From NCBI GenBank assembly GCA_016946835.1, contig JACVTC010000077.1:309501-373500 (forward strand): a stretch of DNA of 64,000 nucleotides, given 5' to 3'. This DNA comes from Neocallimastix lanati (nom. inval.). Its lineage: Eukaryota > Neocallimastigomycota > Neocallimastigomycetes > Neocallimastigales > Neocallimastigaceae. The notes below the pieces were generated by a model. It had not been told where the DNA came from. It made no database searches and saw only the letters and a list, made by a program, of their open reading frames with translations. This document shows, piece after piece, positions 3,031-29,671 of the stretch (the first letter of the stretch is position 1; every line of letters begins with the position of its first letter). The translations under genes and the position numbers were made by a program.

Positions 3031-3500
3031 TGTTACTTAAGATTGTTATAAGGTTTTTTACACAAAAGGTTCTCGACACTAAAGTAATTCAAAATATGTT
3101 TTATTAAAATAAGTTTTTTTTTTTATTAGTAAAAATATAAATTATTATTTTATTAATTAATCATTGTAATATTTTAAATTACTTTAAAATTAATTAATAA
3201 AAGCACAAGTAAAAATATTTTATTATGAAATTTTACACCTATTTATAGTTTTTCAGGAAAATTAATTATTTTAAGTTATCAGTTGTTATTAGTAATTATT
3301 AGAAATAAAAGAAAATTAAAGAAAATTAAAGAAAATTAAAGAAAACAAGTTTTCTTTCTAGAAAATGAATCTTAGATAAAAAAATGATAAAAAATATTAA
3401 TAAAATAGATTTTTCTAGTTTTATCGGTTCAATTGTTTAACCGATAAACACTAGTAATTTCTTTAATATTCTAGTTATAATAAATAAAAAGTTATTAAAA
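3031..3500. other. AT-rich gap between element A and the tRNA-like sequence
   Basis: No gene is seen. It holds a short tandem repeat of about four units of AGAAAATTAA (about 3309-3348) and a perfect 9-bp inverted repeat, TTATCGGTT / AACCGATAA, with a 9-nt loop (3421-3447). The inverted repeat could fold as a hairpin; its role is unknown. T-runs just left of 3500 would serve as Pol III terminators for the minus-strand tRNA-like sequence. Confidence 0.6.
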
Positions 3501-3575
3501 TTTGGAAAGAGTGGGTGTCGAACCCTAAGGATTCAGCCCGATGGTTATGGTGACTTACCATTGAACCATAGTTAC
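3500..3575 (-). other. tRNA-like sequence with Pol III A and B boxes (degenerate tRNA or SINE head)
   Basis: Read on the minus strand, it has an A box TGGTTCAATGG (plus-strand 3558-3568) that fits TRGYNNARNNG. About 34 bp downstream is a B box GGTTCGACACC (3514-3524) that fits GGTTCRANNCC. Runs of four and five T follow, as at Pol III terminators. The spacing is tRNA-like, but I could not pair the acceptor arm, the outer T-stem pairs or a convincing anticodon arm, so it is not a normal tRNA gene. It may be a decayed tRNA, the head of a tRNA-derived SINE, or another Pol III unit. Its predicted 5' end is near 3574, so the insertion point of element B (3590/3591) falls where a Pol III transcript would start. 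Confidence 0.55.
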
Positions 3576-3590
3576 TAATTTACTAATTAT

Positions 3591-4082
3591 TGATAAGAAT
3601 GTACTAAATAATGCATTCTTAATTAAATCTACGATTTATTTCTAATACATTATGTGTACATTATTATTTTTGTACTTTAATAAATTTTTAAATTCAAAGA
3701 TTAAAAATTAGATCAAAAATTATATTAAACTTTATAATTTTTATATTAAATCTTATATTAATAGTAATATTTTTATATATTTAAAACTTATATTAACAAT
3801 ATTAATAATAAATCTTATTTTTTTATTTTTATATTAATAATGAAAATTTGTATTAATAATATTTTTATATATTGATAATTAAAAATTTATATATTATATT
3901 TTAACTTTTATTATAAAATTTTATATCGAAATGTTTTATTTTATATTGAAAAATATTTTATTTTATTAAAAACCTTTATATTAGAATAGTATTTTTATTT
4001 TTATTTGAATATTTTAACAGATTGTAATAAAAATTTTAGCCAATTAAATAAATTCTTATTAGTAATATTTTAGATAGATTAG

Positions 4083-4137
<55 letters not shown>

Positions 4138-4461
4138 TATTAATATTATAAATGTATTTTATTTATATTGTTATAATTAAATTTTATATAATTGATTATA
4201 AAAATCAATTTAAATTTAATAGTTTTTATATATAAAAAGAAAAATAATAATAAAATGTAATTTAGTGGCAAGAACAACTTTTATGCCTTGAAAAAAAAGT
4301 ATAAATAGTTGTAAATTTTGCTACTAATTTTTAAATATCATCAAATAAAATAAAATAAAATAAAATAAAATAAAATAAATTTATAAATAAAAATAATAAA
4401 TAAAAAAATAAAATTTGTGTTTCCTTACTTTATTTTTATTTAATTCTCTAAAACCTTAACA
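3591..4461 (+). repeat. 5' LTR of element B
   Basis: Begins TGATAAGAATG and ends ACCTTAACA. It carries a TATA box (TATAAATA, 4300-4307) preceded by an A-run. A run of 51 A (4083-4133) is present at equal length in the 3' LTR. A short TAAAA array (about 4345-4380) lies downstream of the TATA box. Confidence 0.95.
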
Positions 4462-4470
4462 TTTATATGG

Positions 4471-4482
4471 TGGAGATATCGG
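4471..4482 (+). promoter_or_regulatory. Primer-binding site of element B
   Basis: TGGAGATATCGG starts 9 nt after the 5' LTR. It opens with TGG, as expected for pairing with a tRNA ending in CCA. Element J has the identical 12 bases in the same place. I cannot name the tRNA. Confidence 0.75.
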
Positions 4483-4725
4483 GGAATTAAATAGAAATAA
4501 TAGTAAATAACATAGATTTTTTTTTTTTTAATTTTTTTTTTATTTTATATTGATAAACAAGTAAGTCGTTAATCCTTTGATTAACCCATGGCGCTTGTTT
4601 GATATATATATATAAAAAAAAATTTTTTTTAAATAAGTAAAATTAAGATTCTAAAAAAACAAATTTTGTAAAATTATAACAAGGAGCGGATAGAGCTCAT
4701 ACACAGTGTATTCTCAGATAGCAAC

Positions 4726-4910
4726 AAATTAACTCTATTCATAGTAGGTTATTGAATAGTAGTTAATTTGGAGATTAATTGGAAAGTAGACGAAGGTATT
4801 TGGTTACCGACCCGGTAATAATAGTTCAACCTTCAACGTTTCAACACACGAAGGTGCGGGTACTTTCCAAGCACTGGCGAATAAGGAGCTTACGTCACCG
4901 AAGGCGTAAG
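4726..4910 (+). other. Structured leader segment of element B
   Basis: In an otherwise AT-only leader this stretch is richer in G and C and full of inverted repeats. There is a long hairpin (arms 4726-4741 and 4753-4769, 16 pairs with one bulge). A 10-bp stem, TTGGAAAGTA (4779-4788) / TACTTTCCAA (4861-4870), encloses a 6-bp hairpin TTACCG-ACC-CGGTAA (4804-4818). A 6-bp hairpin CTTACG / CGTAAG lies at 4889-4910. The position between primer-binding site and gag suggests packaging, dimerisation or translation control; that is inference. Confidence 0.6.
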
Positions 4911-5487
4911 ATTGTTTTTTTTATATAATTTTTTTTACTTTTCTTTGTGCTAGTTATAAGGCACTTTATTATATAAAGTATCAGACTTTGGCTAACTTCG
5001 CCATTTAAATTTTTTTTATTTTTTTTTATTACTGGTACTTTATTTGTTATATAATTCCTGTAATAGAATCTTAATTTACTTTGAAAATATTGTGTTTTTA
5101 GTTAATTTTTATTAGTTAATAAAAATATTATTGAATACTTTTAAAATTTTTTTATTCCGTACATAGATTATCGGATTAAGTTTATCCTACATAGTAATTG
5201 GGCTAGTGGGCTCTGAACTGCTATATTTTATATTGAATATAGTAATCGTGGCACACGCGTGGCATGACACCATTAGGTAAGCTGCACGTCAGACAGTGTG
5301 TACTATCAGATTGTACGACAATAAAGATTATTTTTTTGTATTTAATAATTATAATTAATTAATAATTTTATTAGCTATAACAATACAATATTTATCGTTT
5401 AAAAAGAAAAATTTTTGAAAGGTGAAAATAATAAATAAAACTTTGCTTCTAAATTTATTACTACAAATATACTAAATTACAAAATTC

Positions 5488-5676
5488 AAGTGGTCGATAA
5501 AGATTTCGAGCTTGAAAAATATTCTATTAAGTTGTCGATAAAGATTTCGAACTTAAAATTATTCTATTAAGTTGTCGATAAAGATTTCGAACTTAAAATT
5601 ATTCTTAAAAAAGTAGTCGGAAAGAACCTCGTGCTTTATAATTTCTACTAAGTTGTCGATAAGGATTTCGAGCTTA
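5488..5676 (+). repeat. Tandem hairpin repeat in the leader of element B
   Basis: About five imperfect units with a period near 42 bp, built on the core GTCGATAAAGATTTCGA. Several units are bounded by AAGTT and AACTT, so each can fold on itself. One unit (around 5615-5635) has diverged. The array lies about 180 bp before gag. Confidence 0.75.
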
Positions 5677-5857
5677 TACTTACTAAAGAAAGCAAATAAA
5701 ATTATTATTTTCAAAAATTACTAAGATATATTGTTTTAAAATTTGATTCGATATTAAATTACTTGTTAAATTATATTTTTAAAGTTGGACTTTCAAATTT
5801 ATTCGTATTTAATAACCTCGTTAATTTACAATAAAAAAATTATTAACTAAAAACGAA

Positions 5858-6769
5858 ATGTCTACTAAAAGTACTTTAAGTTTTAAAGAATTAAAGAAAG
5901 AATTACGAGACATAGTGAAGCTTAGCAAGGACAATTTAGATATAAAGTCCTGGGCTACTGAATTAAAACTTTGGATCAAGATACAAGGTATCACAGATCC
6001 GGAAACAATATTTAATGCTTGTTTACTTACCAGCTCTGGTGAAGTACAACGCGTTATTGAAGATTTGGGAGAAGATAGTGATGATGAAAGTGATGATTCA
6101 TCAGATGAAGAAGAAGATGATGATGAAGAAGAAAATGTTGATGATGATATTAAATTTCCTTCCCTTGAAAAAATTATTTCAAGTCTTGAAAATTTTTACG
6201 GTATTAAAGAAGACCAAAATTTACTTCTTAAAGAACTTCGTGCAATGCGAATTAAAAGAAACGAAAAGATTAAAGACTTTAATGTAAGATATAGAACTTT
6301 GTACACTAAACTTGATAAAAAGAGAAGAAAGCGCATTGGTGTACTAGATTATATTGATTCTATTCAAAATAATTATGAAGCCTGGAAGAAATTATCCCTT
6401 AAAGATGATATAAGTATGGATAAAGCTTTCAAAATTGCCGAGAAAGTAGATAGACTTTCTGTAAGGAACAATAATATTAATACCTATAATGTTAATAATT
6501 CCCAACATAATCAAAATAATCAAAACAGTACTACTTCAAGACTTTATCCTAAAAGAAGAAACGAAACTTTCCAAACAAATCAAACAAATAATAAACCGAA
6601 ACCTCAAGATATTATAGAAGAATCAACCCAGAAAATGAGAAATTTATCCGTTAAAACTTGCTTCTTCTGTAAGGAAGAAGGTCATTACTCATATTATTGC
6701 CCTCAATTAAATAAGATTATGGAAAAAAATAAAAAAGAAATATATTCCAAAAAGTCTTTAAACTTCTAA
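5858..6769 (+). CDS. gag: Gag of element B
   Basis: A 303-residue Gag-type structural protein. The N-terminal half has the retrotransposon-capsid pattern (IKSWATELKLWIKIQG, then a conserved segment with IKDFNVRYRTLY). An acidic Asp/Glu-rich loop lies at about residues 70-95 and an Asn/Gln-rich linker at about 205-255. One CCHC zinc knuckle (CFFCKEEGHYSYYC, near residue 268) would bind the RNA genome. The ATG is the first in frame after the long leader and is followed by open frame to the slippery site. The C terminus ends four codons after the knuckle region in KSLNF, which encodes the frameshift heptamer. The related Gag in J has the same order of parts. Confidence 0.9.
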   Translation: MSTKSTLSFKELKKELRDIVKLSKDNLDIKSWATELKLWIKIQGITDPETIFNACLLTSSGEVQRVIEDLGEDSDDESDDSSDEEEDDDEEENVDDDIKFPSLEKIISSLENFYGIKEDQNLLLKELRAMRIKRNEKIKDFNVRYRTLYTKLDKKRRKRIGVLDYIDSIQNNYEAWKKLSLKDDISMDKAFKIAEKVDRLSVRNNNINTYNVNNSQHNQNNQNSTTSRLYPKRRNETFQTNQTNNKPKPQDIIEESTQKMRNLSVKTCFFCKEEGHYSYYCPQLNKIMEKNKKEIYSKKSLNF

Positions 6770-6790
6770 ATGGGAGCAGAAGCACTCCCA
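6757..6790 (+). promoter_or_regulatory. -1 frameshift signal between gag and pol of element B
   Basis: TTTAAAC (6757-6763) lies in the gag phase T-TTA-AAC, two codons before the gag stop. Eight nt later comes a hairpin TGGGAG (6771-6776) / CTCCCA (6785-6790) with an 8-nt loop. Pol lies in the -1 frame, so Gag-Pol would be made by -1 slippage, as known for many retroelements. Confidence 0.85.
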
Positions 6791-6951
6791 ATGACAAAAC
6801 AATAGCTTCATTAAATAATTTACAAAATAATACTTTTACTAAGAATACTCCAATTGATAATAATTCCTTTAACGAAGAATCTGAAGAATCTGATTTTAGT
6901 GACACAACTGAAAGTGAGGATGATATCATTATAAATGCTGTAAAAAGAAAA

Positions 6952-9900
6952 ATGAATGATAATAACAGCGAAAAAGAAGAAAATAATTCCAAGAAAGTAC
7001 ATAAAAGTTTAAAAGATAATCCACGTCCTTTTGCAACTCCTGCTTTAAGAAAGAAGAAAGAAAATGAGCTGCATAATAAACCAAATAAAGTTTATAAAAA
7101 TCAAATACTTCCTTCAATTTTAACTCAACCAAATATTAACAAAGAAAAACAAAAAGAAAAGGAATTAAGAAATATGACAAGAGTAAGAGAAAGTAAAGAA
7201 GAAAACAACAATTATTCATCAAAAGGAAAGGAAAAAGTTGAATCTGAAGATATACTTGTAATCGATAATGAAATAGAAGATCTAGAAATGAATAAAGATA
7301 ATCAACAAAATAAAACTAATACTTTGGAAAAATTAATTTCAACAAAAACTAAGGAAACTAATAATGGAAATACTCAATTAGTAAAAAGGAATATCAAAAT
7401 GATGAATAATAAAGAACCTTACAATATTATGGATGATTTAAATAATCTTAAATCCAGTATTACGATAGGTCAACTCTTGAATGCATGTCCTAAAATTCGT
7501 TCACAATTAACTCAAGGTTTAAAGTTAGAAAAGTCTAAAATAATTGGAACTGTAGACAATGTAATAGCACGAACTTTATTAGTAAATAACTATGACCATA
7601 GCTACATAAGTAAAAGTAATGAAGTAGCCGAAGAAGACTTAGCAATGGTTGATGCAAGTGTTGACGGAGTACTAGGAAAACTTTTAATTGATTCTTGTAG
7701 TAACCTAAGCATCGTTACTAAGCAGTATTTTGATAAATTACCTGGTGAATATGAAATAGTTGGAAAAAGTCGTGGAAGAATCCAACTAGCAACACAAGAT
7801 GAAGAATACTCGGAAGGAATTATTGTTCGATTACCAGTAAAAATTAATAATTATGAATTTAATGCGGACTTTAGAATTATTGAGAAAGAAGACTCATTTT
7901 ATGATATGTTAATAAACTTTAAAACTCAAATCGATCATTGTTTATTTATTCATCCAACCTTAAACAGTCTATGTAAACTTTTGTCAGAAAGTGAATACGA
8001 AGAAATAGCTAAAATAAATAATCAATATTATGATGAAGAAAGTATAATCTGCACTATTAGAAAAGTTGAAGAAACGAATAATGAAAAGGAAATTATAAAG
8101 GAATTAACTCCAATGGAATTTATTGAGAGTGATGAATTTTTAAGTACCTTAAATAAAGATTATAAAGAACAAATTATTAAAATTCTCAAAGAAATGATTG
8201 ACATAGTTGCCACTTCAACAGAAGAACTAACTCCTTCTAAACTTTCACCACATAAGATCCGTTTGAAAGCAAATGCAAAGCCAGTAAAATTAAGAAGTTA
8301 TAGGTTAACTAAATTAAAATCAGATATCTTAAAAGAAGAACTTACAAAGCTTATTAAGAAAGGATTGATAGAACCATCCTGTTCAGAATGGTCATCTCCA
8401 GTAGTACTCATTCTAAAACACAATGGAAAGTGGCGCTTGTGCATTGACTACCGAAAAGTCAATGATATGACAGAAAAAGATTCTTATTCAGTTCCATATA
8501 TAGATGAAATTTTTGATAGTCTCGGAGGAGCTAAAATATTTACAACTCTTGATTTATTTTCTGGTTTTCACCAAATCTTAATGGATGAAGAAAGCGTTGA
8601 AGTAACCACTTTCACTACTAAGTTTGGAAATTATCAATTTAAGGTTATGCCTTTTGGACTTACTGGAGCTCCCTCAACCTTCCAAAGAGAAATGAATAAA
8701 ATTTTATTCCCTTTTATTGGTGAATTTGTTTACGTATTTATTGATGATGTTTTGATCTATTCAAAAAGTATCGAAGAACATTTAATTCATATTAAACAAG
8801 TATTAGAAGTATTTAAAGAAAACAAATTAAAAATTAATATTGAAAAGTGCCATTTTCTTCAAACTGAAGTTGATGTATTAGGTCACAAACTTACTACTAA
8901 AGGATTAAGTCCCATGGAAAGTAAAATAACAGCTATTAAGAAGTGGGAAGCCCCTTCATCAATTCATGAATTAAGATCATTTCTAGGAGCAATAGGGTAT
9001 TATCGTGACTTTATCCCTAAATATGCTCAAATTACCTCACCTTTATGTAAATTATTGAAAAAGAATACTAAATATGAATGGAATAAAGAACAACAAGAAA
9101 GCTTTGAACTCCTAAAAGAAAAATTAATCAATGCGCCTATTCTAAAATTTCCGTCATTTGACAAACCTTTTATCATTAGAACTGATGCTTCGTATAATGG
9201 AATTGGTGGAGTTCTTTTACAAAAAGAAGAAGAAACCGGTAAGGAGCATCCAATACACTTTATAAGTAGAAGTTTAAAGAAAGCTGAAAAGAATTATGGT
9301 ATTACCGATTTGGAAGGAACCGCTTTGTTTTACTGTATGACTAAATTTAAATCTTATATTGAAGGAAATCCACTACCTACAACTATTTACACAGATCATA
9401 AACCATTAGTTGGTTTATTTAAGAATAAAGAACCTTTGAATGCAAGGCAAACAAGATGGTGTCTAACCGCTAGTATGCTTGGAATTAATATAAAATATGA
9501 ATCAGGCAAAAAGAATGTGTTAGCTGATGCTCTTTCAAGAATGAAAAGTAAGGAAGAGAGAAAGATATTATTAACAAAAATTACTAATGGAAATAATGAA
9601 GAATTATTATCTAAAGTTATAAAGGAATTTATTAATGAAAAGTTTACTGTTATTGATGGTGAAGATTACCTTATCGACAATGGAAATTATAGAAAATTAA
9701 TAACGGACGAAAATGAAAGGTTTAAATTAATTTTAGAAGCTCATAATATTGGCCACGAAGGATATTACAAAACATATCAAAGACTTAAGAAAAACTTTTA
9801 TTGGAATCATATGATTAAAGATATCAAAAGAATTGTTAGTAATTGTGAAAAATGCCAGTTAAATCGTCCTCAACCATATCCAGAACCAACCGAAAACCAT

Positions 9901-10767
9901 CCAACTAAAGTGGAGGGTCCCTTTGTGCATTTAGGATTAGATATTATAGGACCGTTACCAAAAACAAGAAATAATAATCAATATATTATAGTAACTGTTG
10001 ATTACTTTACCAAATGGGTTGAAGCCGAACCCACTGAAAACATAACTTCCTCTGATATAATTAAATTTTTAATAAACGTTTTTGCAAGACATGGTGTGCC
10101 TCAAGTTATTACTACAGATAATGGAGTCCAATTCACTTCTGATATGACTAAAATCTTTCTTGATCTTTATGATGTTTATGTAAAATTCATAGCTACCTAT
10201 CACCCTGAATCCAATGGTCTCACTGAAAACCGAAATAAAGAAATTGGAAAATTACTTCGTTTATTAGGAAGGAAAAATCAAGATTGGGATGAAGTTTTAC
10301 CTTCTGCTTTATGGGCACTTCGAACTACCAAAAACACAGCTACCGGACATTCTAGTTTTGAATTAGTATATGGAAGAGAAGACCAACAGCCTTATGATAT
10401 AGCCATAAGAACAATTGAAAATGCAGGTAAATCGTATGATGAAATTTTAATGGAAAAATTTGTTCGTCATTATCAATGGACTAGAGAAGCATGCGAAAAT
10501 GTGAAGAATGCTAACAAGTATTGGGCAACAAGACGAGAAGAACAAATAAGTATGAAAAAAGGAAAAGAATTAAAAGCTGGTGATCTTGTTCTTGTTAGAA
10601 ACTTTAGCCGCACTAAGCTAGAACCATATTACAATGGACCATTTAAAATTTTAAAAATTCAATTCAACACGGCAACCTTAATCGATCAGAAAACTGGGAA
10701 ACAACTCGATAGGAATGTTCATTTTAAAAATTTAGTAAAGTTTAACTCCGCTTACAGAGAAGCTTGA
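6952..10767 (+). CDS. pol: Pol polyprotein of element B
   Basis: 1271 residues from the first ATG; the frame is open further upstream, so translation probably enters by frameshift from gag and this ATG is only a formal start. In order: a basic/Asn-rich linker, an aspartic protease (LLIDSCSN, about residue 241), reverse transcriptase (LCIDYRK near 500, FIDD near 595), RNase H (IRTDASYNGIGG near 741, YTDHKPL near 812), the integrase HHCC finger (HNIGHEGYY...CEKCQLN, about 930-970), the integrase core D-D-E (DIIGPLP, TTDNGVQF, HPESNGLTENRNKEIG, about 995-1090) and a GPF/Y-type C-terminal module (YNGPFKIL near 1225). RT-RNaseH-IN order identifies Ty3/gypsy. No chromodomain is visible. Confidence 0.95.
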   Translation: MNDNNSEKEENNSKKVHKSLKDNPRPFATPALRKKKENELHNKPNKVYKNQILPSILTQPNINKEKQKEKELRNMTRVRESKEENNNYSSKGKEKVESEDILVIDNEIEDLEMNKDNQQNKTNTLEKLISTKTKETNNGNTQLVKRNIKMMNNKEPYNIMDDLNNLKSSITIGQLLNACPKIRSQLTQGLKLEKSKIIGTVDNVIARTLLVNNYDHSYISKSNEVAEEDLAMVDASVDGVLGKLLIDSCSNLSIVTKQYFDKLPGEYEIVGKSRGRIQLATQDEEYSEGIIVRLPVKINNYEFNADFRIIEKEDSFYDMLINFKTQIDHCLFIHPTLNSLCKLLSESEYEEIAKINNQYYDEESIICTIRKVEETNNEKEIIKELTPMEFIESDEFLSTLNKDYKEQIIKILKEMIDIVATSTEELTPSKLSPHKIRLKANAKPVKLRSYRLTKLKSDILKEELTKLIKKGLIEPSCSEWSSPVVLILKHNGKWRLCIDYRKVNDMTEKDSYSVPYIDEIFDSLGGAKIFTTLDLFSGFHQILMDEESVEVTTFTTKFGNYQFKVMPFGLTGAPSTFQREMNKILFPFIGEFVYVFIDDVLIYSKSIEEHLIHIKQVLEVFKENKLKINIEKCHFLQTEVDVLGHKLTTKGLSPMESKITAIKKWEAPSSIHELRSFLGAIGYYRDFIPKYAQITSPLCKLLKKNTKYEWNKEQQESFELLKEKLINAPILKFPSFDKPFIIRTDASYNGIGGVLLQKEEETGKEHPIHFISRSLKKAEKNYGITDLEGTALFYCMTKFKSYIEGNPLPTTIYTDHKPLVGLFKNKEPLNARQTRWCLTASMLGINIKYESGKKNVLADALSRMKSKEERKILLTKITNGNNEELLSKVIKEFINEKFTVIDGEDYLIDNGNYRKLITDENERFKLILEAHNIGHEGYYKTYQRLKKNFYWNHMIKDIKRIVSNCEKCQLNRPQPYPEPTENHPTKVEGPFVHLGLDIIGPLPKTRNNNQYIIVTVDYFTKWVEAEPTENITSSDIIKFLINVFARHGVPQVITTDNGVQFTSDMTKIFLDLYDVYVKFIATYHPESNGLTENRNKEIGKLLRLLGRKNQDWDEVLPSALWALRTTKNTATGHSSFELVYGREDQQPYDIAIRTIENAGKSYDEILMEKFVRHYQWTREACENVKNANKYWATRREEQISMKKGKELKAGDLVLVRNFSRTKLEPYYNGPFKILKIQFNTATLIDQKTGKQLDRNVHFKNLVKFNSAYREA

Positions 10768-10785
10768 GTCTTCGTCGGGGCATCT

Positions 10786-11277
10786 TGATAAGAATGTACT
10801 AAATAATGCATTCTTAATTAAATCTACGATTTATTTCTAATACATTATGTGTACATTATTATTTTTGTACTTTAATAAATTTTTAAATTCAAAGATTAAA
10901 AATTAGATCAAAAATTATATTAAACTTTATAATTTTTATATTAAATCTTATATTAATAGTAATATTTTTATATATTTAAAACTTATATTAACAATATTAA
11001 TAATAAATCTTATTTTTTTATTTTTATATTAATAATGAAAATTTGTATTAATAATATTTTTATATATTGATAATTAAAAATTTATATATTATATTTTAAC
11101 TTTTATTATAAAATTTTATATCGAAATGTTTTATTTTATATTGAAAAATATTTTATTTTATTAAAAACCTTTATATTAGAATAGTATTTTTATTTTTATT
11201 TGAATATTTTAACAGATTGTAATAAAAATTTTAGCCAATTAAATAAATTCTTATTAGTAATATTTTAGATAGATTAG

Positions 11278-11332
<55 letters not shown>

Positions 11333-11655
11333 TATTAATATTATAAATGTATTTTATTTATATTGTTATAATTAAATTTTATATAATTGATTATAAAAAT
11401 CAATTTAAATTTAATAGTTTTTATATATAAAAAGAAAAATAATAATAAAATGTAATTTAGTGGCAAGAACAACTTTTATGCCTTGAAAAAAAAGTATAAA
11501 TAGTTGTAAATTTTGCTACTAATTTTTAAATATCATCAAATAAAATAAAATAAAATAAAATAAAATAAAATAAATTTATAAATAAAAATAATAAATAAAA
11601 AAATAAAATTTGTGTTTCTTACTTTATTTTTATTTAATTCTCTAAAACCTTAACA
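10786..11655 (+). repeat. 3' LTR of element B
   Basis: Same sequence as the 5' LTR apart from about one base, including the 51-A run and the TATA box (11495-11502). It is followed by TTAT and then directly by element C. Confidence 0.95.
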
Positions 11656-11659
11656 TTAT

Positions 11660-12260
11660 TGATACGGTATTTACCCAAATACCTTAAATTATAATAATTT
11701 TAATATTTCTCCATATAAATATGTTTTAAATCTATTTTATTAATTAATTATTATCTTTATTAACTTTATCAATATTTCCTTTATTATTATATAAATATAT
11801 ATATTATTAATTATTAATATTTTGCTATAAAATAAATATTTTATTATATTCTTATTATATTTTTATTATACATTTGATAAATTTTATTTTATATTATAAA
11901 TTTTTTATTATTTTTATTATTAATATTCATATCTAAAATTTTATTATTATTTTATTGTTACACAAAATTATTTTTAACTAATCAATGTATTACCAAAATT
12001 TATAAAATATTTTGTAATAATATTATTTTAAATCTCTCTCTTTTCTTTTTTTTATGTAATGGAGGAATAAATAAATAAATGAACAAATAAATAAATGGAT
12101 GAATAATATATAGTTAAATAAATTTTTAAATAAATAAATTAATAAATAATCAATAAATAAATAAATAAATATTGTATAAGTTTTTCGTAATTTTTATACG
12201 TCCACTATCTATTTACCAATATATTATTATACATCCATCAATTTCAAAAGTCCTGTACCA
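11660..12260 (+). repeat. 5' LTR of element C
   Basis: Begins TGATACGGTATTT and ends CCTGTACCA. Elements D and E begin with the same TGATACGG, and D ends with the same AAGTCCTGTACCA, so these LTR families are related. Confidence 0.95.
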
Positions 12261-12267
12261 TAATTTC

Positions 12268-12285
12268 TGGCGAGCTATGCAGGAC
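12268..12285 (+). promoter_or_regulatory. Primer-binding site of element C
   Basis: TGGCGAGCTATGCAGGAC, 7 nt after the LTR. Its complement, GTCCTGCATAGCTCGCCA, looks like a tRNA 3' end (T-stem CCTGC, acceptor strand, CCA). Element D has the same 18 bases at 22779-22796. Confidence 0.8.
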
Positions 12286-12417
12286 CAAAGTATAATAATA
12301 TGAAACATTAATAGATAGTAAAAAAGAAAGAAGATTAAATAAAATATTATAAACGAAATAATAATAATAATAATAAAGCAAATAAAATAAAACAGAAAAA
12401 AAAAAAAAACTAAAGAA

Positions 12418-13290: not shown

Positions 13291-13312
13291 AAGGAAGAAG
13301 GGAAACTTCCTT
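13278..13312 (+). promoter_or_regulatory. -1 frameshift signal between gag and pol of element C
   Basis: TTTAAAC (13278-13284) in phase T-TTA-AAC. After a 6-nt spacer there is a perfect 7-bp hairpin, AAGGAAG (13291-13297) / CTTCCTT (13306-13312), with an 8-nt loop. Pol is in the -1 frame. Confidence 0.85.
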
Positions 13313-13403
13313 TAATCAAACCAACGAAAAGAACCATTTACCACTAGTTCCAAATAATGACATATTAGCAGCGGTAGTAAGAAGAAAGAAAAAGAATAAT
13401 AGT

Positions 13404-17149: not shown

Positions 17150-17167
17150 AACTTAACGGGGGCATCA

Positions 17168-18759: not shown

Positions 18760-19440
18760 TGATACGGAACTAACTAATAATTCATATTATACTATTGGAA
18801 ATTATAATTAAGTTTAATAACTTTATGTATTAAATATTTTAAACTATTTTTATAATTCCAAAATTTTATTCTTAATTTAAAATAATTATATAGATTATCA
18901 AATTAAATCGATTAATGACTAATTATTAAAAAATTATTATTTAATTAAATTGATTAATGACTAATTATTAAAAAAATCATTATTTAATTAAATTGATTAA
19001 TGACTAATTATTAAATAATTATTATCTTATATTAATTAAATTGTTTTATTATTATATTTAATTATTATTAATATTAAATTGTTTCAAGAATTATATTATC
19101 AAAAATATTACCAATAATTTTATTATTAAATTTTTTAATTTTATCATTAATATTATTTGTCATTAAAGATAATATTAATTATATTAGTATTAATATTTTT
19201 ATTATTAAAATAACTCTTAAAAAATATTATTTAAAATCACATGTAATAATTATACTAATAAGAATTAAAATAATTTAAATTATTATAAAAATTCATGTAG
19301 TAAAAAAGTATAAAAGAAAAAGAAAATACTTAATAAAAAAGGAGGAGTTAAAAAAATAAAAAACGGAAAGTGAAATTAAATTATTAACTAATATATTATT
19401 TTCATTTTTTTTTTTTGAAGTTTATTGTGTACCTGCACCA
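18760..19440 (+). repeat. Solo LTR of family E
   Basis: Begins TGATACGGAACTAAC (start shared with C and D) and ends ACCTGCACCA. ATTA flanks both sides. A TATA-like box lies near 19309. Three tandem copies of a unit of about 50 bp around ATTAATGACTAATTATTAAA lie at about 18902-19015. Confidence 0.75.
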
Positions 19441-19446
19441 ATTATG

Positions 19447-20293
19447 TGTTACGGTACAATTAAATAAAGAAAAATTAAACTATTTAAAGAAAATATTAAA
19501 GTAAAAAATATCATTAACAATTATAAATAAATAATAAAAATTTGAATATTAAAATATTAGTTATAGAATATTATAAAGTTAAATAAAAATAATTAGATGT
19601 ATTAAAAAATCATGTATTAATTATATTATTTAATATTGTAAAATTTTTATATAATATTTTAATAATTTAGAAAATTTAAGTTTATTATATTTTTATTATT
19701 ATATTTTTATTATTAAATTTTTATTATTAAATTTTTATTATTAATTTTTTTTATTTTTATTTTTAATCCAATCAAATAAATATTTTATTAGTATAAAAAA
19801 GAACAAAGTAACACAATACTTTTGTTCTCTCCCTTTTTTTCTTACGACTTTATTATTATATTATTTTTTTAATATTTTCTAAAAGTTAAATAATAAATTA
19901 AATAGTTTAAAATAAATTAAAATTTATTAAATAGTTTTTTCTAAATTTAATGTTTTAAAAGTGTTTAATTAATAGTTTTTTGTGTTTAGTGTATAATATT
20001 AAGATAAGTATAGTATAAAATTAGTTTAGTAATAGATTAGTTGTATTAAACATTTTATAGAAATAGTAATAGATTTAGAGAAATTGTTTAGTTTAGATTA
20101 GAATAGTTTAGATTAAGATATTAGTTTAAGTTATTTTAACTTAGTTTAGATTCTTTTAGATTAGGATAGTTTAGACTAAAATTAGAGTAGTTTATTAATT
20201 AATTTAGGTTTAGAATTAGAGAATAATATTTTAAATTTTTCCTTATTATTAGAATATATTATTTTATTAATAAAATCTTCAGATCTTGAACCA
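19447..20293 (+). repeat. Solo LTR of family G
   Basis: Begins TGTTACGGTACAATT and ends GATCTTGAACCA, with TATG on both sides. The ACGG start and ACCA end resemble the C/D/E group. A TATA-like box (TATAAAAAA) lies at about 19792. No coding sequence. Confidence 0.7.
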
Positions 20294-20297: not shown

Positions 20298-21262
20298 TGT
20301 GTAAGAATCTATAATTATTTTTAAATAAAATAATTATATTTTCTTAGTTAAGTTATAATTATAACTTTATTTAATTATATAATATTTATTCATTTAAATA
20401 TTATTAATAATTTATTAAACTCAATATTAAATAATCATTAATTTAATACAACAAATTTATTTAATTAATTATTATTTATACATTTATAAATAATTATAGT
20501 TTATTTAATTATATATTTAATTATTAAATTTATTAGTCTTAGTTTATTTATTTAATTAAATTGTAAACAAATATATTATGTATTCTAATATGAACTTAAT
20601 AATGTATTCTGTATTTTGTTTATTAATATCATTATTATGTTATTTTCCATATTTGTAAATTTATGATTTTATGGTCGAAATATCTTTTATTATTTTATTC
20701 TTTTATTTTCGATCAATTAAATTAGATTAGCTAATCGGTCAATTAGGGTTTTTCCCAATCACTTTTTAAAAGTAATTGGTTTTACCTAATTGATACGATG
20801 ATCGATATGGATAGAATATCGATCAAAAATCTTATCTAGGTTTTTCTCTCTAATCTTTTCCTAGATAAGAGATTTGTTAAGATTAGAAAACATTTTTTAA
20901 TTTAACCTTATTTTTCAAAAAAGTATAAATAAAGCTCTTGAATTCTCTTTGAGAAATCAAGAGTTATTATTATAACAATTATAATATAGTAATAACATTA
21001 ATAAATTTTTTATATTTCTATTTTAATAAAGTAAGTTTTAATAAAAAACAAATTTAAAAAAAATAAAATAAAATAATCTTTTCTCTTTGACTATTTTGTG
21101 TTATTAGTTTATTATAATTAGTTATAATAAACTCTCTCTTATAGAAGATAAGTATATTTATCTTTTTTTTGTTTTCTCAATTTAATAATAATTATTATTT
21201 AGTTATTATTAAGTTGTAGTTAATAATTTAATTCTAATTAATTTTATAATTAAATTATTACA
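20298..21262 (+). repeat. Probable solo LTR H
   Basis: Begins TGTGTAAGAATC straight after the TATG that closes G. It has a TATA box TATAAATA at 20924-20931 in the same AAAAGTATAAATA setting as the B and J LTRs. The right end is uncertain. I place it at TTATTACA because the bases that follow, ATG or AATG, may be a decayed TATG. The alternative is a single 1.8-kb unit running on to 22103. Confidence 0.45.
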
Positions 21263-21265
21263 ATG

Positions 21266-22103
21266 TGGTAAAGAACGAACATATAATGGATTATTAATTA
21301 GAATTTCAACTTACTTTAGAATCCATTATATTATTCTTTACTTAATATTACTTTACTATATTTTCTATACTAAAATATTTTCTAAATATATTTATTTTTT
21401 TTATATTTTTATTAAAAGTTTCTAAAATATTATCAATAATTCTATATTTTTATTATTAATATCAATATCTATAATTTAACCTTAAATTTTATTATTTTAT
21501 TAAAGTGTTTATTATCAATATTAATATTTTATTTTTATTTTCAAATATATTATTATATTATTATTATATTGTATCAATATTAAAATTGTATTCTTTTTAG
21601 TATTTTATTTTATTTTTAAATTGATTATTTTATATTTTTATTCCCCACAAATAAAATCAAATCTTAATTGATTAATAATAAATATTAAATATATTATAGT
21701 TTTTAAATTTATTTTATATAAAATATAAGAATATTATATTAACATTCTTGATTAAAATAACTTTATTTTTCTGTAAAATCTTTTTAAATTTTGTTTGTTA
21801 CTTTTCGTATATATTAAATAATTTAGTTTTAGTATATGAAAAATAATATAAAATTATGTAAACAAAATTTATTAAAATAAAAATACTTATGAATTAGTTA
21901 ATTTAAATTAATATAAAATTTTAAGTAATTAGTAATAGTAAATATTTTTTTTTAAATATGATAATAAAATGTAGAAAGGCTTTACATATTTATTTTTTCA
22001 AAAAGTATAAATAAGTGAAGTTTTTCAATAATTAAAATGTAGACAGAAAAAATATTAAAAATAAATAATTAAATAAAATTCTAATAAAACCCGAACCATA
22101 ACA
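21266..22103 (+). repeat. Probable solo LTR I
   Basis: Begins TGGTAAAGAACGAAC and ends GAACCATAACA, followed by TATG. A second TATA box (TATAAATA, 22006-22013) suggests an LTR distinct from H. The left boundary is inferred. Confidence 0.45.
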
Positions 22104-22844
22104 TATGTGATACGGAACAATCTAATATTGCTTATATTATTTAATTTATTATTTTATATTTGTTTTTATTTCTTTTATATTATTTTTATTTTATATCTTT
22201 ATTTTTATTTTAAATTTTTATTTGTATTTTTACTTTTACTTTATTTTTATTTTAATTTTTATTATATTATTTTTATCTTATATTTTATTTTTATTTTATA
22301 TTTTTATTTTTATTTTTACTTTTATTTTTACTTTAATTTTTATTATTTTTATATATTATTTTATTATTTTTTATATTTTATTTTAATTAATTAAAAATTT
22401 ATTTGAACCAATAAAAAAACTTCATTAAATTCTATAAATAACTTGTAAAATCAAAAAATATTAAAAACTCTCTCTCAAAATTTTATAAATTAAATTTTAG
22501 AATAAAATAAGGTAAAATAAATTAAGGGTGTTTTAATTTAGTGTTAAGCTGTGTTGTTAATATAATAGTTTTAAGTTTAAATAATAATTAAGTTAGTTAA
22601 GGGGTTTAAAATAAAATAAAAGAGAGCTTAGTTAATATTTAAAAACATTAGAATATTAATGTTGAGTTTAATTAGTTTAGATAATATTCGGAAATAAATA
22701 AATAAGTTTAATTAGAATTAATTAGAATATATTATTATTGAAAATAAATAAATGAAAAGTCCTGTACCATAAAAATTTTGGCGAGCTATGCAGGACAAGA
22801 CAATAATAATATGAAAATAATTAATTCAATAATTTAGAATAGAC

Positions 22845-22883
<39 letters not shown>

Positions 22884-23043
22884 AGTATAAATTAATAATA
22901 ACAATAATATAAGAAATTTTATAAATTGAAAGAATAAAATATAGTTAAAGTAATAAATAATTGAATAATAATTAATTTAGTGTGTAGAATTTTAATAAAT
23001 ATATTTATATATAATAGTGATAGTAGTAATAGTGAGTTATAAA

Positions 23044-23113
<70 letters not shown>

Positions 23114-23219
23114 TGATCCATCCATCAACCTTTGGATTGAAATATTGTTATTGTTGTTCAACTGGTAATAGAAGTTTTCCTTCTTTTGTTATTTAAACAA
23201 CAGTAATTTTAATTTCAGC

Positions 23220-23345
23220 ATTATACAAGCTGCTAATTTCGGTCAGCGTGGGGGATTAGGGCTGTGTAAAGATCTTCGAGTCGTTTGCAAGTGCGAGGAG
23301 AAGTGACGGAATGAACACAGGGGACGAAACGTCACAGAAATTAGC
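23220..23345 (+). other. GC-richer leader segment of element D
   Basis: Between the primer-binding site and gag, about 125 bp stand out from the AT-rich surroundings by their G and C content. They include inverted repeats such as GTGACG / CGTCAC around 23302-23333 and CTGTG / CACAG. A structured packaging or translation signal is possible, as proposed for the leader of B; the two leaders do not look alike in sequence. A long A-run precedes it (about 23076-23110). Confidence 0.4.
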
Positions 23346-23441
23346 GTATAATAATAAGATTACTGGTCGGGTTTTTATAACAAAATAACAGTTTAATTAG
23401 TTATATAAAATATTAAAATATTAACAATAGAAAGTAAGAGA

Positions 23442-24350
23442 ATGAAGATTTTAGAAATCCAAAAATTATTACCAAGAGTAACTGAATCAACAGGAGAATT
23501 GGACTCTTGGTTTGAAGAGTTTAATAGGTTGATGGCTCTAGCAGATATAGAATCTCCTAAGAGTATATTCATTTGGGCATTAGAATGTGTAAATGGAAGG
23601 TTAAGAGGTGTAGTACAAGAACTAGAAAAGGAAACTGAAGATGGTAAGATTTATCCATCCATAAAAGAGATAAAAGAAGCTTTGGAGGAAGCACTTAGGA
23701 TCACACCACAAGAAAAATGTAAAATGCTACAAAAATTGAAGATTCAAAGGGGTGAAACAATAGCCGACTTCAACTGGAGATATAAGAAACTCTACGATAG
23801 CTTACCAAAATTTTACCAAACATTTGTTACTGTAGATGATTATATTGAATCAATTAAGTATAGACCTTACATTAGATCTCAAGTAATTACCCAACGATCG
23901 GAAGATTTAGAAGACGCGTTTGAAGAAGCTGAATTGGCCGAGAGAGCGGAACAAATAAAGACGTCAAATAAAGTTACGGTAATGACAACACTATTTCATG
24001 GCCAGTCCAATAATCAATCTGAAAGATATCAACATGAATACAATAATAATAGAAGGAGTAATAATTACTTTAATACTAGAAGGAATAATTATAATAATAA
24101 CTATAATTATAATCAGAAGCAGAATCAAAGACGCACACTTCAAAATAATAATTATTTTAACCAAAGAAATGTAAATAATACTGAATTTGAAAATAAATCT
24201 CAAAATGAAACAAATCGCAATGAAAATATAGTTTGCTTCCGATGTGGAAAAATAGGTCACATCTTTAGAAGGTGTCCTTATACATTTAAGCAGTTAGCTG
24301 AAATAGAAGAGAGAGAAAATAAAGAAAAAGAAAATAATCATTTAAACTAA
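23442..24350 (+). CDS. gag: Gag of element D
   Basis: A 302-residue Gag protein, with a capsid-like N-terminal half (LDSWFEEFNRLMALADI; EKCKMLQKLKIQRGETIADFN; EDLEDAFEEAELAERAEQ), a long Asn/Arg/Tyr-rich linker (about residues 185-245) and one CCHC knuckle CFRCGKIGHIFRRC near residue 264. It is close to Gag of C. The frame ends at the slippery heptamer as in the sister elements. Confidence 0.9.
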   Translation: MKILEIQKLLPRVTESTGELDSWFEEFNRLMALADIESPKSIFIWALECVNGRLRGVVQELEKETEDGKIYPSIKEIKEALEEALRITPQEKCKMLQKLKIQRGETIADFNWRYKKLYDSLPKFYQTFVTVDDYIESIKYRPYIRSQVITQRSEDLEDAFEEAELAERAEQIKTSNKVTVMTTLFHGQSNNQSERYQHEYNNNRRSNNYFNTRRNNYNNNYNYNQKQNQRRTLQNNNYFNQRNVNNTEFENKSQNETNRNENIVCFRCGKIGHIFRRCPYTFKQLAEIEERENKEKENNHLN

Positions 24351-24373
24351 TAAATGGGAGAAGGGAAACTCCC
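24341..24373 (+). promoter_or_regulatory. -1 frameshift signal of element D
   Basis: TTTAAAC (24341-24347) in phase T-TTA-AAC, an 8-nt spacer, then hairpin GGGAG (24356-24360) / CTCCC (24369-24373) with an 8-nt loop. Confidence 0.8.
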
Positions 24374-24556
24374 GTATATCAAACCACAACCTATCAGAAC
24401 CCTACAGAGTCAAAAGAACCAATTTTAGCTGCGGTTATAAGAAGAAATAAAAATAATTCTGGTTCAAAACCTTATGAAAATAGAACTATAAGAACATTAA
24501 AAGAAAACCCAGTTAGTATACCAATCCCTAAAGGCCTTCAGTATGCTCAAGATAAC

Positions 24557-27500
24557 ATGGAAACTGAAAATAACAAAAGTTCCAACACAGAAAAACTTGA
24601 AGAAGTAGATGTTTCAATAATTGCACAACCATCAATAAATAAAGCGAAAAGCATGTCAAAAATAGAAAGAACTAAAGAAATACAGACCGAAACAGAAAAG
24701 AATAACAGCAATATCAATAAACCAAATAAGAATCAAAGTACATTACCAAGTGATACAATAAAAGAAAAAAGGAATAAGCAACTAGGTAATAACAATACTA
24801 AACATGTGTCTATGATGGAAGGAAGGAAAAGGTACAACATTACAGACGACCTAAACAAGCTAATGGAAAATATCTCAATATCCCAATTGATTGATGCGAG
24901 TCCTAAGCTAAGATCGGAACTCTCTAAGGCATTAAAATTGAAAGCCCCTGAGATGACTGAAGAAAACCCAGAAAAGGTGATGATGTCCGCATTAAGCAGA
25001 GAAGACGTTGCGACCGCAGAATGTATCGTAGAAAACACACCAGGAGTAGCGTTTCTAGATACTTGTGCTAGCATTAACTTAATTACAAGGAAATACTTTA
25101 ATAAATTAAAGAATATAACTCCATCTGGATACACTGATGATAACATTATTCAAGTTTTCTCCAATAAGAATATCGTTATGGAAACTTGTTATTTGAGACT
25201 AAAATTTGGAAATATAGAAATACAAGATAGCTTTAGGATAATTGATCATGATAAAAATATCTTTGACGTACTAATCGGATATAGAACACTTAAAGAAAAT
25301 CACCTTTTCATAAACCCAGTTGACAATTTCCTTTGTAGAATGAACAGAGATGAGACTTGGGAGAGAATAATACCTTTACACAAAAAGGATAAATGTATAA
25401 GCACTGAAGAATTGCCTACCAAACAAACATATGAAGAAGAAGACAGATTGTTGTTACTTTGTTTTACAAAAAAGGTAAAAGAAAAAGAGGATATTGACGA
25501 GAAAAAGGAAATAATTGATAAGTTAATATTGGAAATTCCGTGGAAATATAAAAAACAAGTTAAAAAATTATTTAATAAATATTATCATATTTTAGCTACC
25601 AAAATTGAGGAATTACAGTCAACTAAATTATTACCATATACCATTCAATTGAAAGATGGTGCTAAACCAATCAAACAAAAATGCTATCGCTTATCAAAGG
25701 TACAAGCTGATGCACTTAAGGAAGAAATCACCAAGTTAATTAATAATAAACTTATAGAACCATCCAATTCACCATGGTCTTTCCCTGTAATACTAGTTCT
25801 TAAAAAAAATAATAAATGGCGAATGTGCATAGACTTTCGAAAATTGAATGATTTAACTATAAAAGATGCATACTCATTACCCTTAATAGATGAAATCCTT
25901 TTCTCCATAGGGAAGAAAGTCAAATATTTTACAACCATAGACTTGTTTTCAGGATTCCATCAAATTCCAATGTCAAAGAATGATATTCCTAAAACCAGTT
26001 TCACTACTATCTTTGGAAACTATCAATTTCGTGTCATGCCTTTCGGTCTCTGTAATGCACCAGCAACCTTCCAGAGGGAAATGAACAGGATCTTTTTCCC
26101 ACTAATTGGAGTATGTATGTTCATCTACATCGACGACTTAGTTATTTTTTCCAATTCATTAGAAGAACATATTAAAGATATTATTAAAGTTTTTGAAATT
26201 ATATCCTAAATCGGTTAAAAGTAAATCTAGAAAAATGCAATTTCTTTAAGAAAAAGGTAGAGCTTCTGGGACATACACTCTCAGTTGAAGGAATTTCACC
26301 GATAATGTCTAAAGTCAACGCCATTGCTGGTTGGTCTGCTCCTACAACAGTAAAGCAACTCCAGTCCTTCTTGGGCGCAGTTGGATACTATCGTAAATTT
26401 ATTGCTAATTACTCAAGTATTGCTAAACCTCTCTATAAACTTTTAAAGAAAGAAACCCCATTTGTTTGGAACTCAGAACAAGAAGAAGGATTCGATAAGT
26501 TGAAAGATAGATTAATGAAAGCACCAATACTAACAATGCCAGATTTTGAAAAGCAATTTATTATACGTACGGATGCATCATATTCAGGAATAGGAGGTGT
26601 ATTATTACAGAAAGATGAAAAAAATAATGAAAAGCCAATACATTTTATTAGTCGAACTTTAAAACCAGGAGAACAAAACTACGGAATTACTGATCTTGAA
26701 GGTACTGCTGCTGCTTATTGTGTCAAAAAATTTAAATCATACTTTGCTGGAAATAAATTCGAAACTCTTCTCTACACGGATCACAAACCATTAGTAGGAC
26801 TCTTTAAGAATAAAGAACCAAATGATGCAAGACAGACAAGATGGGTAATATTATTTTCAATGCTTAAAATAAAAGTATTATACGAACCCGGAAAAAAGAA
26901 TGTCATAGCAGATGCACTGTCCAGAATGGAATCTAAAGACGAAATAGTTGCTCCTTTAATATTGGATTATGGTAATAACCCCGTTAATAATTTTAAAAAT
27001 AGCTTTGTAACAATTGACAATGTAGAATATTATGATGATAAAGATTCTAAAACCCTAAGAAAAGTTATAAAGGATAATGAAGAAAAGATAAATCTTGTTT
27101 TACAGGCCCATGGAATCGGGCATGAAGGAATATTCAAGACTTATAATCGGCTCAAACGCGACTACTACTGGAGAAACATGATATTGGATGTTAAGTACTT
27201 AGTTAGAACATGTAAAAGATGCCAACTCTTTCGTCCACAAACAGGAAATTATCAAACTGAAAATTTATCTACTAAACCTGGTTTACCATTTACGAAGGTT
27301 GGATTAGACATTGTTGGACCTTTACCCAAAACACAGAAGGGATACCAATATATCTTTGTATTAGTAGATTATCTTACCAAGTGGGTCGAAGCCGAACCCA
27401 GTATTAATATCGAATCTGATGATGTCATACATTTTCTTACAAGAGTATTTTCTAGGCACGGTACACCAGAGATACTTGTCACTGACAACGGTCCGCAGTT

Positions 27501-28149
27501 TCGATCAGATAAGACAAAGTCTTTCTTAGATCTCTATGGTGTCTATGTAAACTATACTAATGTTTATCACCCGGAATCCAATGGCGAGGTAGAGAATCGC
27601 AATAAAGAAATTGGGAAGTATTTAAGAATATTATGTAATAAAAATACTACTAATTGGGACGAAATCCTTCCAAGTGCATTATGGGCTATTAGAACATGTA
27701 AGCATGAAACAACTAAATTTTCAAGTTTTGAGCTTCTATATGGTCGTCGGGATTTGCAGCCATTTGAGCTAATGATTAACTTAGATAAAAAAGAGGAGTG
27801 GGAGTCTGACGAAGAATATTTAATTAGAAGATTCACAAAACATAATAAATGGATAAAAGAAGCTGTTAACAATATTGAAACAGCTAATAAGCTTTGGGAA
27901 GATCGGAGAAAACAAATGAAGAGACTTAAGGCAGATTACAATCCAGGGGATCTTGTATTAGTACGATTAATAAATCGAAGAAAACTTGACCCATTTTTCC
28001 TTGGACCAATGAAGATAGTTAAAAAACAATTTAATACTGTTACCTTGTGTGATCCGCTCACTAATGAAATTGCAGAACGTAATGTCCATTTAAAAAATAT
28101 TGTTCCGTATAAGTTATGTGAAATAGAGACTTCAGGGACGAAGTCCTAA
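24557..28149 (+). pseudogene. pol: Pol region of element D (broken)
   Basis: Contains, in order, the linker, protease (FLDTCASIN), reverse transcriptase (MCIDFRKLN, YIDD), RNase H (IRTDASYSGIGG, YTDHKPL), the integrase finger and D-D-E core (DIVGPLP, VTDNGPQF, HPESNGEVENRNKEIG) and the GPM-type end. About one break interrupts it. Otherwise it matches pol of C over its whole length. Confidence 0.9.
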
Positions 28150-28837
28150 CTCAACGGGGGCATCTTGATACGGAACAATCTAATATTGCTTATATTATTG
28201 AATTTATTATTTTATATTTGTTTTTATTTCTTTTATATTATTTTTATTTTATATCTTTATTTTTATTTTAAATTTTTATTTGTATTTTTACTTTTACTTT
28301 ATTTTTATTTTAATTTTTATTATATTATTTTTATCTTATATTTTATTTTTATTTTATATTTTTATTTTTATTTTTACTTTTACTTTTATTTTTACTTTAA
28401 TTTTTATTATTTTTATATATTATTTTATTATTTTTTATATTTTATTTTAATTAATTAAAAATTTATTTGAACCAATAAAAAAACTTCATTAAATTCTATA
28501 AATAACTTGTAAAATCAAAAAATATTAAAAACTCTCTCTCAAAATTTTATAAATTAAATTTTAGAATAAAATAAGGTAAAATAAATTAAGGGTGTTTTAA
28601 TTTAGTGTTAAGCTGTGTTGTTAATATAATAGTTTTAAGTTTAAATAATAATTAAGTTAGTTAAGGGGTTTAAAATAAAATAAAAGAGAGCTTAGTTAAT
28701 ATTTAAAAACATTAGAATATTAATGTTGAGTTTAATTAGTTTAGATAATATTCGGAAATAAATAAATAAGTTTAATTAGAATTAATTAGAATATATTATT
28801 ATTGAAAATAAATAAATGAAAAGTCCTGTACCATATG

Positions 28838-29654
28838 TGATAAGAATGTACTAAATAATGCATTCTTAATTAAATCTACGATTTATTTCTAATACATTAT
28901 GTGTACATTATTATTTTTGTACTTTAATAAATTTTTAAATCCAAAGATCAAAAATTAAATCAAAAATTATATTAAACTTTATATTTTTATATTAAATCTT
29001 ATATTAATAGTAATATTTTTATATATTTGAAACTAATATTAGCAATATTAATAATAAATCTTAATTTTTTATATTTTTATATTAATAATGAAAATTTGTA
29101 TTAATAATATTTTTTATATATTGATAATTAAAAATTTATATATTATATTTTAACTTTTATTATAAAATTTTATATCGAAATGTTTTATTTTATGTTGAAA
29201 AATATTTTATTTTATTAAAAACCTTTATATTAGAATAGTATTTTTATTTTTATTTGAATATTTTAACAGATTGTAATAAAAATTATAGCCAATTAAATAA
29301 ATTCTTATTAGTAATATTTTAGATATTTTTAAAAAAAAAATGTTTTATTAATATTATAAATGTATTTTATTTATATTGTTATAATTAAATTTTATATAAC
29401 TGATTATAAAATTCAATTTAAATTTAATAGTTTTTTTTAAAAAAAAAATATAAATAAAATGTAATTTAGTGGCAAGAACAACTTTTATGCCTTGAAAAAA
29501 GTATAAATAGTTGTAAATTTTGCTACCAATTTTTAAAAATCATGAAATAAAATCAAGTAAAATTAATAAAATAAATAAATAAAAAAATAATAAACAAATA
29601 AATAAAATTTGTGTTTCTTACTTTATTTTTATTTAATTCTCTAAAACCTTAACA
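28838..29654 (+). repeat. Solo LTR of the element B family
   Basis: 817 bp, beginning TGATAAGAATGTAC and ending ACCTTAACA, with TATG on both sides. It differs from the LTRs of B by scattered substitutions and lacks their long A-run (about 10 A here against 51). It is therefore an older relative, left after loss of its internal part. Confidence 0.9.
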
Positions 29655-29671
29655 TATGAGTTTCGTTACAA

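Follow-up and report, generated by a model that had tools for sequence, protein, structure and literature searches.

Nine retrotransposon insertions stacked at a probable Pol III start-site landing pad within the LTR of another element in Neocallimastix lanati

We analysed a 64,000-nt stretch of contig JACVTC010000077.1 from the anaerobic fungus Neocallimastix lanati (nom. inval.), positions 309,501 to 373,500 of assembly GCA_016946835.1 (199 Mb, 762 contigs). In this stretch, hereafter the window (G+C 22%), nine long terminal repeat (LTR) retrotransposon insertions stand head to tail beside a tRNA-like unit with promoter boxes of the RNA polymerase III (Pol III) type. The explanation that best accounts for the whole, and that we hold to be very probable, is that the stack marks a landing pad at a Pol III start site, struck at least nine times by several Ty3/gypsy families whose integrases carry no chromodomain. 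The pad lies within a tenth LTR, of a family named A here. Such a pad had been proposed in the original prediction, made from the letters of the window, and it gained support from the genome-wide placement of families B and C and from a nine-step insertion history. The evidence presented here consists entirely of sequence.

Results

Nine insertions at one target site

The nine insertions follow one another in the order B, C, F, E, J, G1, G2, D and B′ from 3591 to 29654 (Table 1). They are flanked by the two halves of one site, the end of the family A LTR: at the far edge of the stack stands TATGAGTTTCGTTACA, the terminus missing from the LTR with the A and B boxes. Spacers of 3-6 bp separate the inserts, and each derives from ATTATG(TG). 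A head-to-tail stack at one overlapping ATTATG site had been predicted; it was confirmed and extended to nine members. Serial insertion by different families stood, while the predicted elements E and G each resolved into two (E and J, G1 and G2). In the reconstructed history, target duplications were 4 bp in eight of the nine insertions and 5 bp (ATGTG) in G1, and the spacers were not uniformly the 4 bp first proposed. Element H, formerly considered a probable member, was rejected. It is an F-like remnant (similarity at 29673-30193), and as the A LTR is completed at the far edge of the stack, H lies beyond that LTR and outside the stack.

A nine-step history, in which B′, D, G2, G1, J, E, F, C and finally B entered in turn, each at the site copy closest to the unit and each duplicating 4 bp (5 bp for G1), matched all ten boundary strings exactly (both flanks and the eight inner junctions). 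The reconstructed cuts were confined to 10-13 bp from the 5′ motif of the unit. Only two orders are forced: F is younger than E because its duplication includes the first base of E, and G1 is younger than G2 because its duplication includes the first two bases of G2; the other steps are interchangeable with the same junctions. The three elements with two LTRs gave independent support to this history. Their LTR pairs are 99.9% (B), 99.7% (C) and 99.0% (D) identical, so that divergence grows with distance from the unit (0.1%, 0.3% and 1.0%) and the youngest of the three stands nearest to it. The 90% identity between B′ and B may reflect age or a difference of subfamily. The pol frame of D is broken at 26209-26305.

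Table 1. Features of the insertion stack and its target LTR (window positions).
Feature	Positions	Strand	Details
Family A LTR, larger part	3016-3590	minus (= sense strand)	86 genome copies of the unit end; LTR pair L011/L012; integrase and chromodomain reading frame in the same sense in one other copy
tRNA-like Pol III-type unit, U3 start of the A LTR	3500-3575	minus	box search; at least 40 genome copies
Left target duplication TTAT, stack edge proximal to the unit	3587-3590		boundary reconstruction
Element B, full length	3591-11655	+	gag 5858-6769, pol 6952-10767
Element C, full length, TTAT before it	11660-17767	+	gag 12418-13290, pol 13404-17129
Solo LTR F	17772-18756	+	right duplication TTAT uses first base of E; same LTR with closed site in L076
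Solo LTR E	18760-19440	+	duplication ATTA
Solo LTR J	19447-20293	+	duplication TATG
Solo LTR G1	20300-21262	+	5-bp duplication ATGTG using first two bases of G2; both LTR ends in L078, opposite orientation
Solo LTR G2	21266-22103	+	duplication TATG; both LTR ends in L066
Element D	22108-28833	+	gag 23442-24350; pol as two open stretches, 24557-26209 and 26305-28149
Solo LTR B′	28838-29654	+	90% identical to B
Right duplication TATG and remaining A LTR end AGTTTCGTTACA (29659-29670)	29655-29670	minus	closes the target site

The target LTR carries a Pol III-type unit

The unit beside the stack has an A box, TGGTTCAATGG, at 3568-3558 and a B box, GGTTCGACACC, at 3524-3514, both read on the minus strand. 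The boxes are spaced 44 bp apart, and we take both the motifs and this spacing to match those of tRNA genes. With the RNA 5′ end placed at 3575, the stack starts 15 bp upstream; the original prediction had put this distance at 17 bp. The fold of the unit is unremarkable (z -1.56).

The unit occurs in at least 40 places in the genome, often in pairs 5-7 kb apart, and a pattern search for the unit end (≤2 mismatches) returned 101 places, from which 86 distinct units were analysed. An intact A LTR measures about 0.58 kb, as delimited by the LTR pair of loci L011 and L012. In 17 of 20 paired A elements the units were 5.3-6.7 kb apart, and in the other three the distance was wider. Beside the A LTR of locus L015, an open reading frame (ORF) in the same sense as the unit encodes an integrase core, an SH3 domain and a chromodomain (Pfam scores for the last ~1.5 kb of this one copy: Chromo 63.8 bits, rve 48.7 bits). 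Judged from these sequences, the unit sits in sense orientation at the U3 start of a chromovirus-type LTR. A reading of the anchor as a free-standing tRNA or short interspersed element (SINE) was ruled out by the pairs 5-7 kb apart and by the integrase-chromodomain ORF next to the LTR in the one copy read. A second family, A2, has a similar unit and LTR end and likewise occurs in pairs, most of them with members about 5.2 kb from each other.

By eye, the A LTR in the window has no matching duplication of its own: a decayed Ty3-type pol lies to its left (1-3015) and the remnant H to its right (29671-30193). Part of its own target site was probably removed by deletion or recombination.

A units are a hot spot for insertion

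Among the 86 A units, the site is continuous in 33 and interrupted in 53; the latter amount to no more than 48 independent cases, as at least five resemble duplicate contigs. All but two of the interrupted units (51 of 53) have a tagged LTR start within a 9-bp window, 12-20 bp upstream of the inferred 5′ end of the unit (mode 15-16); those two are occupied without a recognised LTR tag. The inserts fall into 14 loose sequence clusters. One of these is the opposite end of B, and another probably includes that of G1, which leaves about a dozen LTR types at A units. Of the 66 A LTRs whose body was recovered, 38 have the site interrupted, while no more than five of the 66 lack an intact body of ~525 bp.

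At seven occupied A units the far end of the insert was recovered, and the remainder of the A LTR follows it. These closed sites around short inserts bear on the possibility that the stack is an assembly or recombination artefact in which different LTRs were fused at short common words. The words at the junctions are indeed short and rich in A and T, and some of the small contigs resemble duplicates. Against this, the junctions obey duplication rules down to the overlaps with a neighbour's first bases (F with E, G1 with G2), and the seven units elsewhere are closed in the same way; we regard an artefact as extremely improbable. In five instances, two contigs carry A units that agree in both variants and inserts (C187/C387, C179/C477, C3/C517, C749/C303 and C357/C374), which suggests that these are duplicate (allelic) contigs in the assembly.

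Occupancy differed between the two LTRs of an element. In 13 of the paired A elements the 5′ LTR was occupied and the 3′ LTR empty, one pair (on contig C7) showed the reverse, two were occupied at both LTRs and four at neither. The asymmetry of 13 versus 1 (P = 0.0018) includes one pair, on C387, that is probably a duplicate of C187, and it has to be read with the caveat that a long insert in a 3′ LTR splits a pair, 35 of the 53 occupied units being in no resolved pair. A same-strand pair on C741, 11.9 kb apart, was left out as its members are unlike two ends of one element. For A2, 2 of 10 5′ LTRs and 0 of 10 3′ LTRs were occupied. The asymmetry could stem from promoter occlusion at the 3′ LTR or from the higher G+C content of the sequence directly upstream of that LTR.

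Placement of B and C across the genome

We sampled the flanks of B and C genome-wide. Starts of B numbered 777 (≤1 mismatch); the first 100 were taken, 32 were excluded as internal by pairing, 60 of the remaining 68 candidates were fetched, and removal of 6 internal ones left 54 external starts. For C, 40 listed matches were considered. After removal of the window copies and 3′ LTRs, five loci and 19 of 22 further candidates were used, the three lowest-scoring candidates being omitted; two proved internal and one (L182) lacked the C tag at its start, which left 21 external starts.

The 54 B starts lie at tRNA genes (12, of which 10 were called by ARAGORN and 2 added by Rfam), at tRNA-like units of A, A2 and other families (14), at a GC-rich unit (2), within a few bases of the ends of other LTRs (21) and elsewhere (5). 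Of these last five, L122 lies in an A LTR entered from the other side. The 21 C starts comprise 4 at tRNA genes, 1 at a 5S rRNA gene (Rfam 80.7 bits), 9 at tRNA-like units, 6 at LTR ends by rule and 1 other (L173), which has the same terminus as the B locus L141. The Pol III genes struck thus include tRNAs of several isotypes and, by C, one 5S rRNA gene. In 13 of the 14 ARAGORN cases from both families, the LTR start lies 13-16 bp upstream of the mature tRNA 5′ end. A B-box rule (GGTTCGA, ≤1 mismatch, start 55-73 bp upstream) was positive at 24 of 54 B starts, 11 of 21 C starts and 0 of 45 control flanks of family A, the latter taken on one side only, the true 3′ side of A; mononucleotide shuffles gave means of 0.7, 0.3 and 0.3, respectively.

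These placements bear on two other explanations. Integrases might favour an A/T-rich word (TTAT/TATG) or existing LTR ends, with the Pol III unit as a bystander, and it fits such a local preference that all nine stack duplications overlap one ATTATG(TG) and that 21 of 54 B starts match another LTR's end by a loose rule. At tRNA sites, however, the four bases beside B vary (AAAA, GAAA, TTTC, CTTG, GTGA, TGTT), yet the distance stays at 13-16 bp in all but one of the ARAGORN cases, and among the 66 A LTRs with a recovered body, 38 are broken at the site whereas at most five lack an intact body. We therefore consider local preference very improbable. Alternatively, the elements might insert widely and survive only beside Pol III genes. 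Nothing specific speaks for this selection, which is a general worry with resident copies; copies of A in DNA without such a unit (none in 45 one-sided flanks) argue that other sites are tolerated in this 199-Mb genome, and survival would yield neither the 3-bp spread of positions in the stack nor the 9-bp hot spot in A LTRs. Selection has, in our estimate, only a slight chance of being the cause. Taken together, the flanks place two families at a near-fixed distance upstream of Pol III-type genes, independently of the local word.

Two B copies lie just upstream of a near-identical GC-rich unit of ~100 nt (loci L131, L154 and L188, the last at C31:519780-520275), in which Rfam found no match; a T-run follows the unit in L188. 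The unit is possibly a Pol III RNA gene that has escaped recognition. At least four more families of tRNA-like units, judged by eye, were struck by both B and C (L117/L179, L132/L180, L163/L178 and L119/L159/L002/L003).

Integrases of the incoming elements

The pol products of B and C have their domains in Ty3/gypsy order (RVT_1, RNase H, H2C2, rve). For the B pol protein, Ty3 was the best solved relative, through its reverse transcriptase (RT)/RNase H part (7q5b, E 2.9e-106). The B integrase aligns to Ty3 residues 1111-1444 of 1547 in 7q5b and stops 7 residues further on. In each of the 35 sequences aligned (B plus 34 homologues out of 120 listed), 5-21 residues lie beyond the last invariant integrase motif, which is too short for a chromodomain; C, D and a further element in the window, K, end 9-16 residues past the same motif.

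Other features of the window and genome

Element K (30960-38262) is a Ty3/gypsy element with LTRs 99.8% identical and a pol ORF of 1506 aa, in which Pfam detected no chromodomain. An inverted LTR with a K-like start (a weak match) adjoins the B copy in L121. Elsewhere in the window, the product of a conserved gene at 53219-56008 shares 80% identity with an Anaeromyces robustus protein and 79% with a Piromyces finnis protein, as befits an anaerobic gut fungus (Neocallimastigomycota). On contig C555, 34 of 63 scored tRNA matches lie between ~170 and 399 kb, several of them ~540 bp apart; this cluster is a locally amplified tRNA gene.

Discussion

The case for a Pol III start-site landing pad stands on the insertion positions, the distance distribution of B, C and the A-unit inserts, the identity of the carrier LTR and the consistent history, each established from the DNA sequence. 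In the mechanism that we propose, several non-chromodomain Ty3/gypsy families enter Pol III-type genes at a set position, ~15 bp ahead of the 5′ end, their integrase complexes most likely being recruited by the bound initiation factor TFIIIB, as for Ty3. The landing site here is the U3 start of the A LTR with its sense-oriented A/B-box unit, which would be occupied in cells. Each newcomer would then enter on the unit-proximal side at a near-constant distance and displace older copies outward.

Several observations weigh against this explanation or narrow its base. Neither ARAGORN on the window nor Rfam on the window and another copy called the unit a tRNA, and the tRNA-like class of flanks was sorted by eye and box search; one member, the C start L183, had no Rfam match. 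Flank sampling covered B and C, while D, E, F, J, G1 and G2 are known from the stack and from matches at A units, where duplicate contigs lower the number of independent cases. One ARAGORN case lies at 4 bp, not 13-16 bp. Among the B starts, L109 has nothing recognisable beside it, and L112, L141 and L143 have only an LTR-like CA end seen by eye. The loose LTR-end rule was also positive at 6 of 45 control flanks; under a strict rule (24 bases, ≤1 edit), 12 B and 2 C flanks remain, with 1 of 45 in the control. The control flanks themselves are one-sided. As for the integrases, the B piece alone scored better against prototype foamy virus integrase (E 1.3e-31) than against Ty3 (E 1.2e-22), and the integrases of B, C and D carry no Ty3-type C-terminal chromodomain of the kind that contacts TFIIIB.

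This last point bears on how the integrases would be guided. In Ty3, according to excerpts of PMC8632968, TFIIIB bound upstream of the start positions the intasome; the C-terminal chromodomain, past the SH3 domain, touches Brf1 and DNA, and the SH3 domain touches TBP. With the contact domain of Ty3 missing in B-D, the molecular contact is not simply that of Ty3. By analogy, the SH3 domain would be the obvious candidate for a TFIIIB contact in integrases without a chromodomain.

In the order of RT, RNase H and integrase, and in integrating a few bp upstream of Pol III gene starts, the elements described here resemble Ty3 of Saccharomyces cerevisiae. Unlike Ty3, whose target duplication is 5 bp, they mostly leave duplications of 4 bp. 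The parallel with Ty3 drawn in the original prediction holds for the placement upstream of Pol III genes; the integrases of B-D end without a counterpart of the TFIIIB-contacting chromodomain (PMC8632968, in excerpts). Targeting of the Ty3 type is known in budding yeasts, fission yeast, Candida, Yarrowia and Dictyostelium, according to excerpts of PMC5911963, PMC4600332 and PMC5006619. There, the Ty3/gypsy elements Tj1 (Schizosaccharomyces japonicus), Tyl3, Ylt1 and Tyl6 (Yarrowia), Beta and Tca8 (Candida) and DGLT-A (Dictyostelium) lie upstream of tRNA starts or of the mature tRNA sequence, at distances of ~1-33 bp. The same excerpts give Tj1 a target duplication of 5 bp and insertions at 5S genes, as for one C copy here, and DGLT-A a distance of 13-33 bp, close to our 13-16 bp. 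Our case differs from all of these in the host lineage, in the use by several families within one large genome, and in targets that lie inside the LTR of another retrotransposon; the excerpts describe no stack for those elements comparable to the nine-deep one reported here.

Pol III promoters within LTRs also have precedents. Like Helenus/TRIMp3, whose LTRs have a tRNA-like Pol III promoter (PMC10886601, in excerpts), the A and A2 LTRs carry an A-box/B-box unit with tRNA-like spacing, which is not called tRNA by the models. Helenus is short (311-1263 bp) and non-autonomous, whereas A copies mostly exceed 5 kb and one copy read has an integrase-chromodomain ORF; its author considers autonomous coding partners unlikely to have such an LTR sequence, and the excerpted text does not discuss Helenus LTRs as integration targets (PMC10886601). 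Cassandra, cited through the same excerpts, likewise has a Pol III promoter within its LTR and differs from A as a plant terminal-repeat retrotransposon in miniature (TRIM), non-autonomous and with a 5S-derived promoter. Among the listed titles and abstract openings of open-access papers, a scope outside which most subscription journals fall, none dealt with anaerobic fungi as hosts of Pol III targeting or with Pol III units in LTRs as targets for integration. The mechanism is of a known kind; what sets the case apart is a landing pad inside an LTR, a stack nine deep and integrases without Ty3's guiding domain.

A joint reading of both sides can be offered tentatively, and we think it rather doubtful. 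Coding, chromodomain-bearing LTR elements may have equipped the start of their LTR with a functional Pol III initiation site, a decoy that draws other retrotransposons, mostly into the 5′ LTR, where an insert should stay out of the element's RNA; the newcomers would use a second integrase-TFIIIB contact that needs no chromodomain.

Targeting of Pol III genes is usually explained as harmlessness in compact genomes. Here, two sampled families, and perhaps a dozen judging by the matches at A units, use it in a genome of 199 Mb, and the LTR of another retrotransposon serves as a target. Because positioning is so exact, resident insertions could be used to map where Pol III is likely to initiate, also at unannotated sites, and the missing chromodomain makes the guidance of such integrases directly testable.

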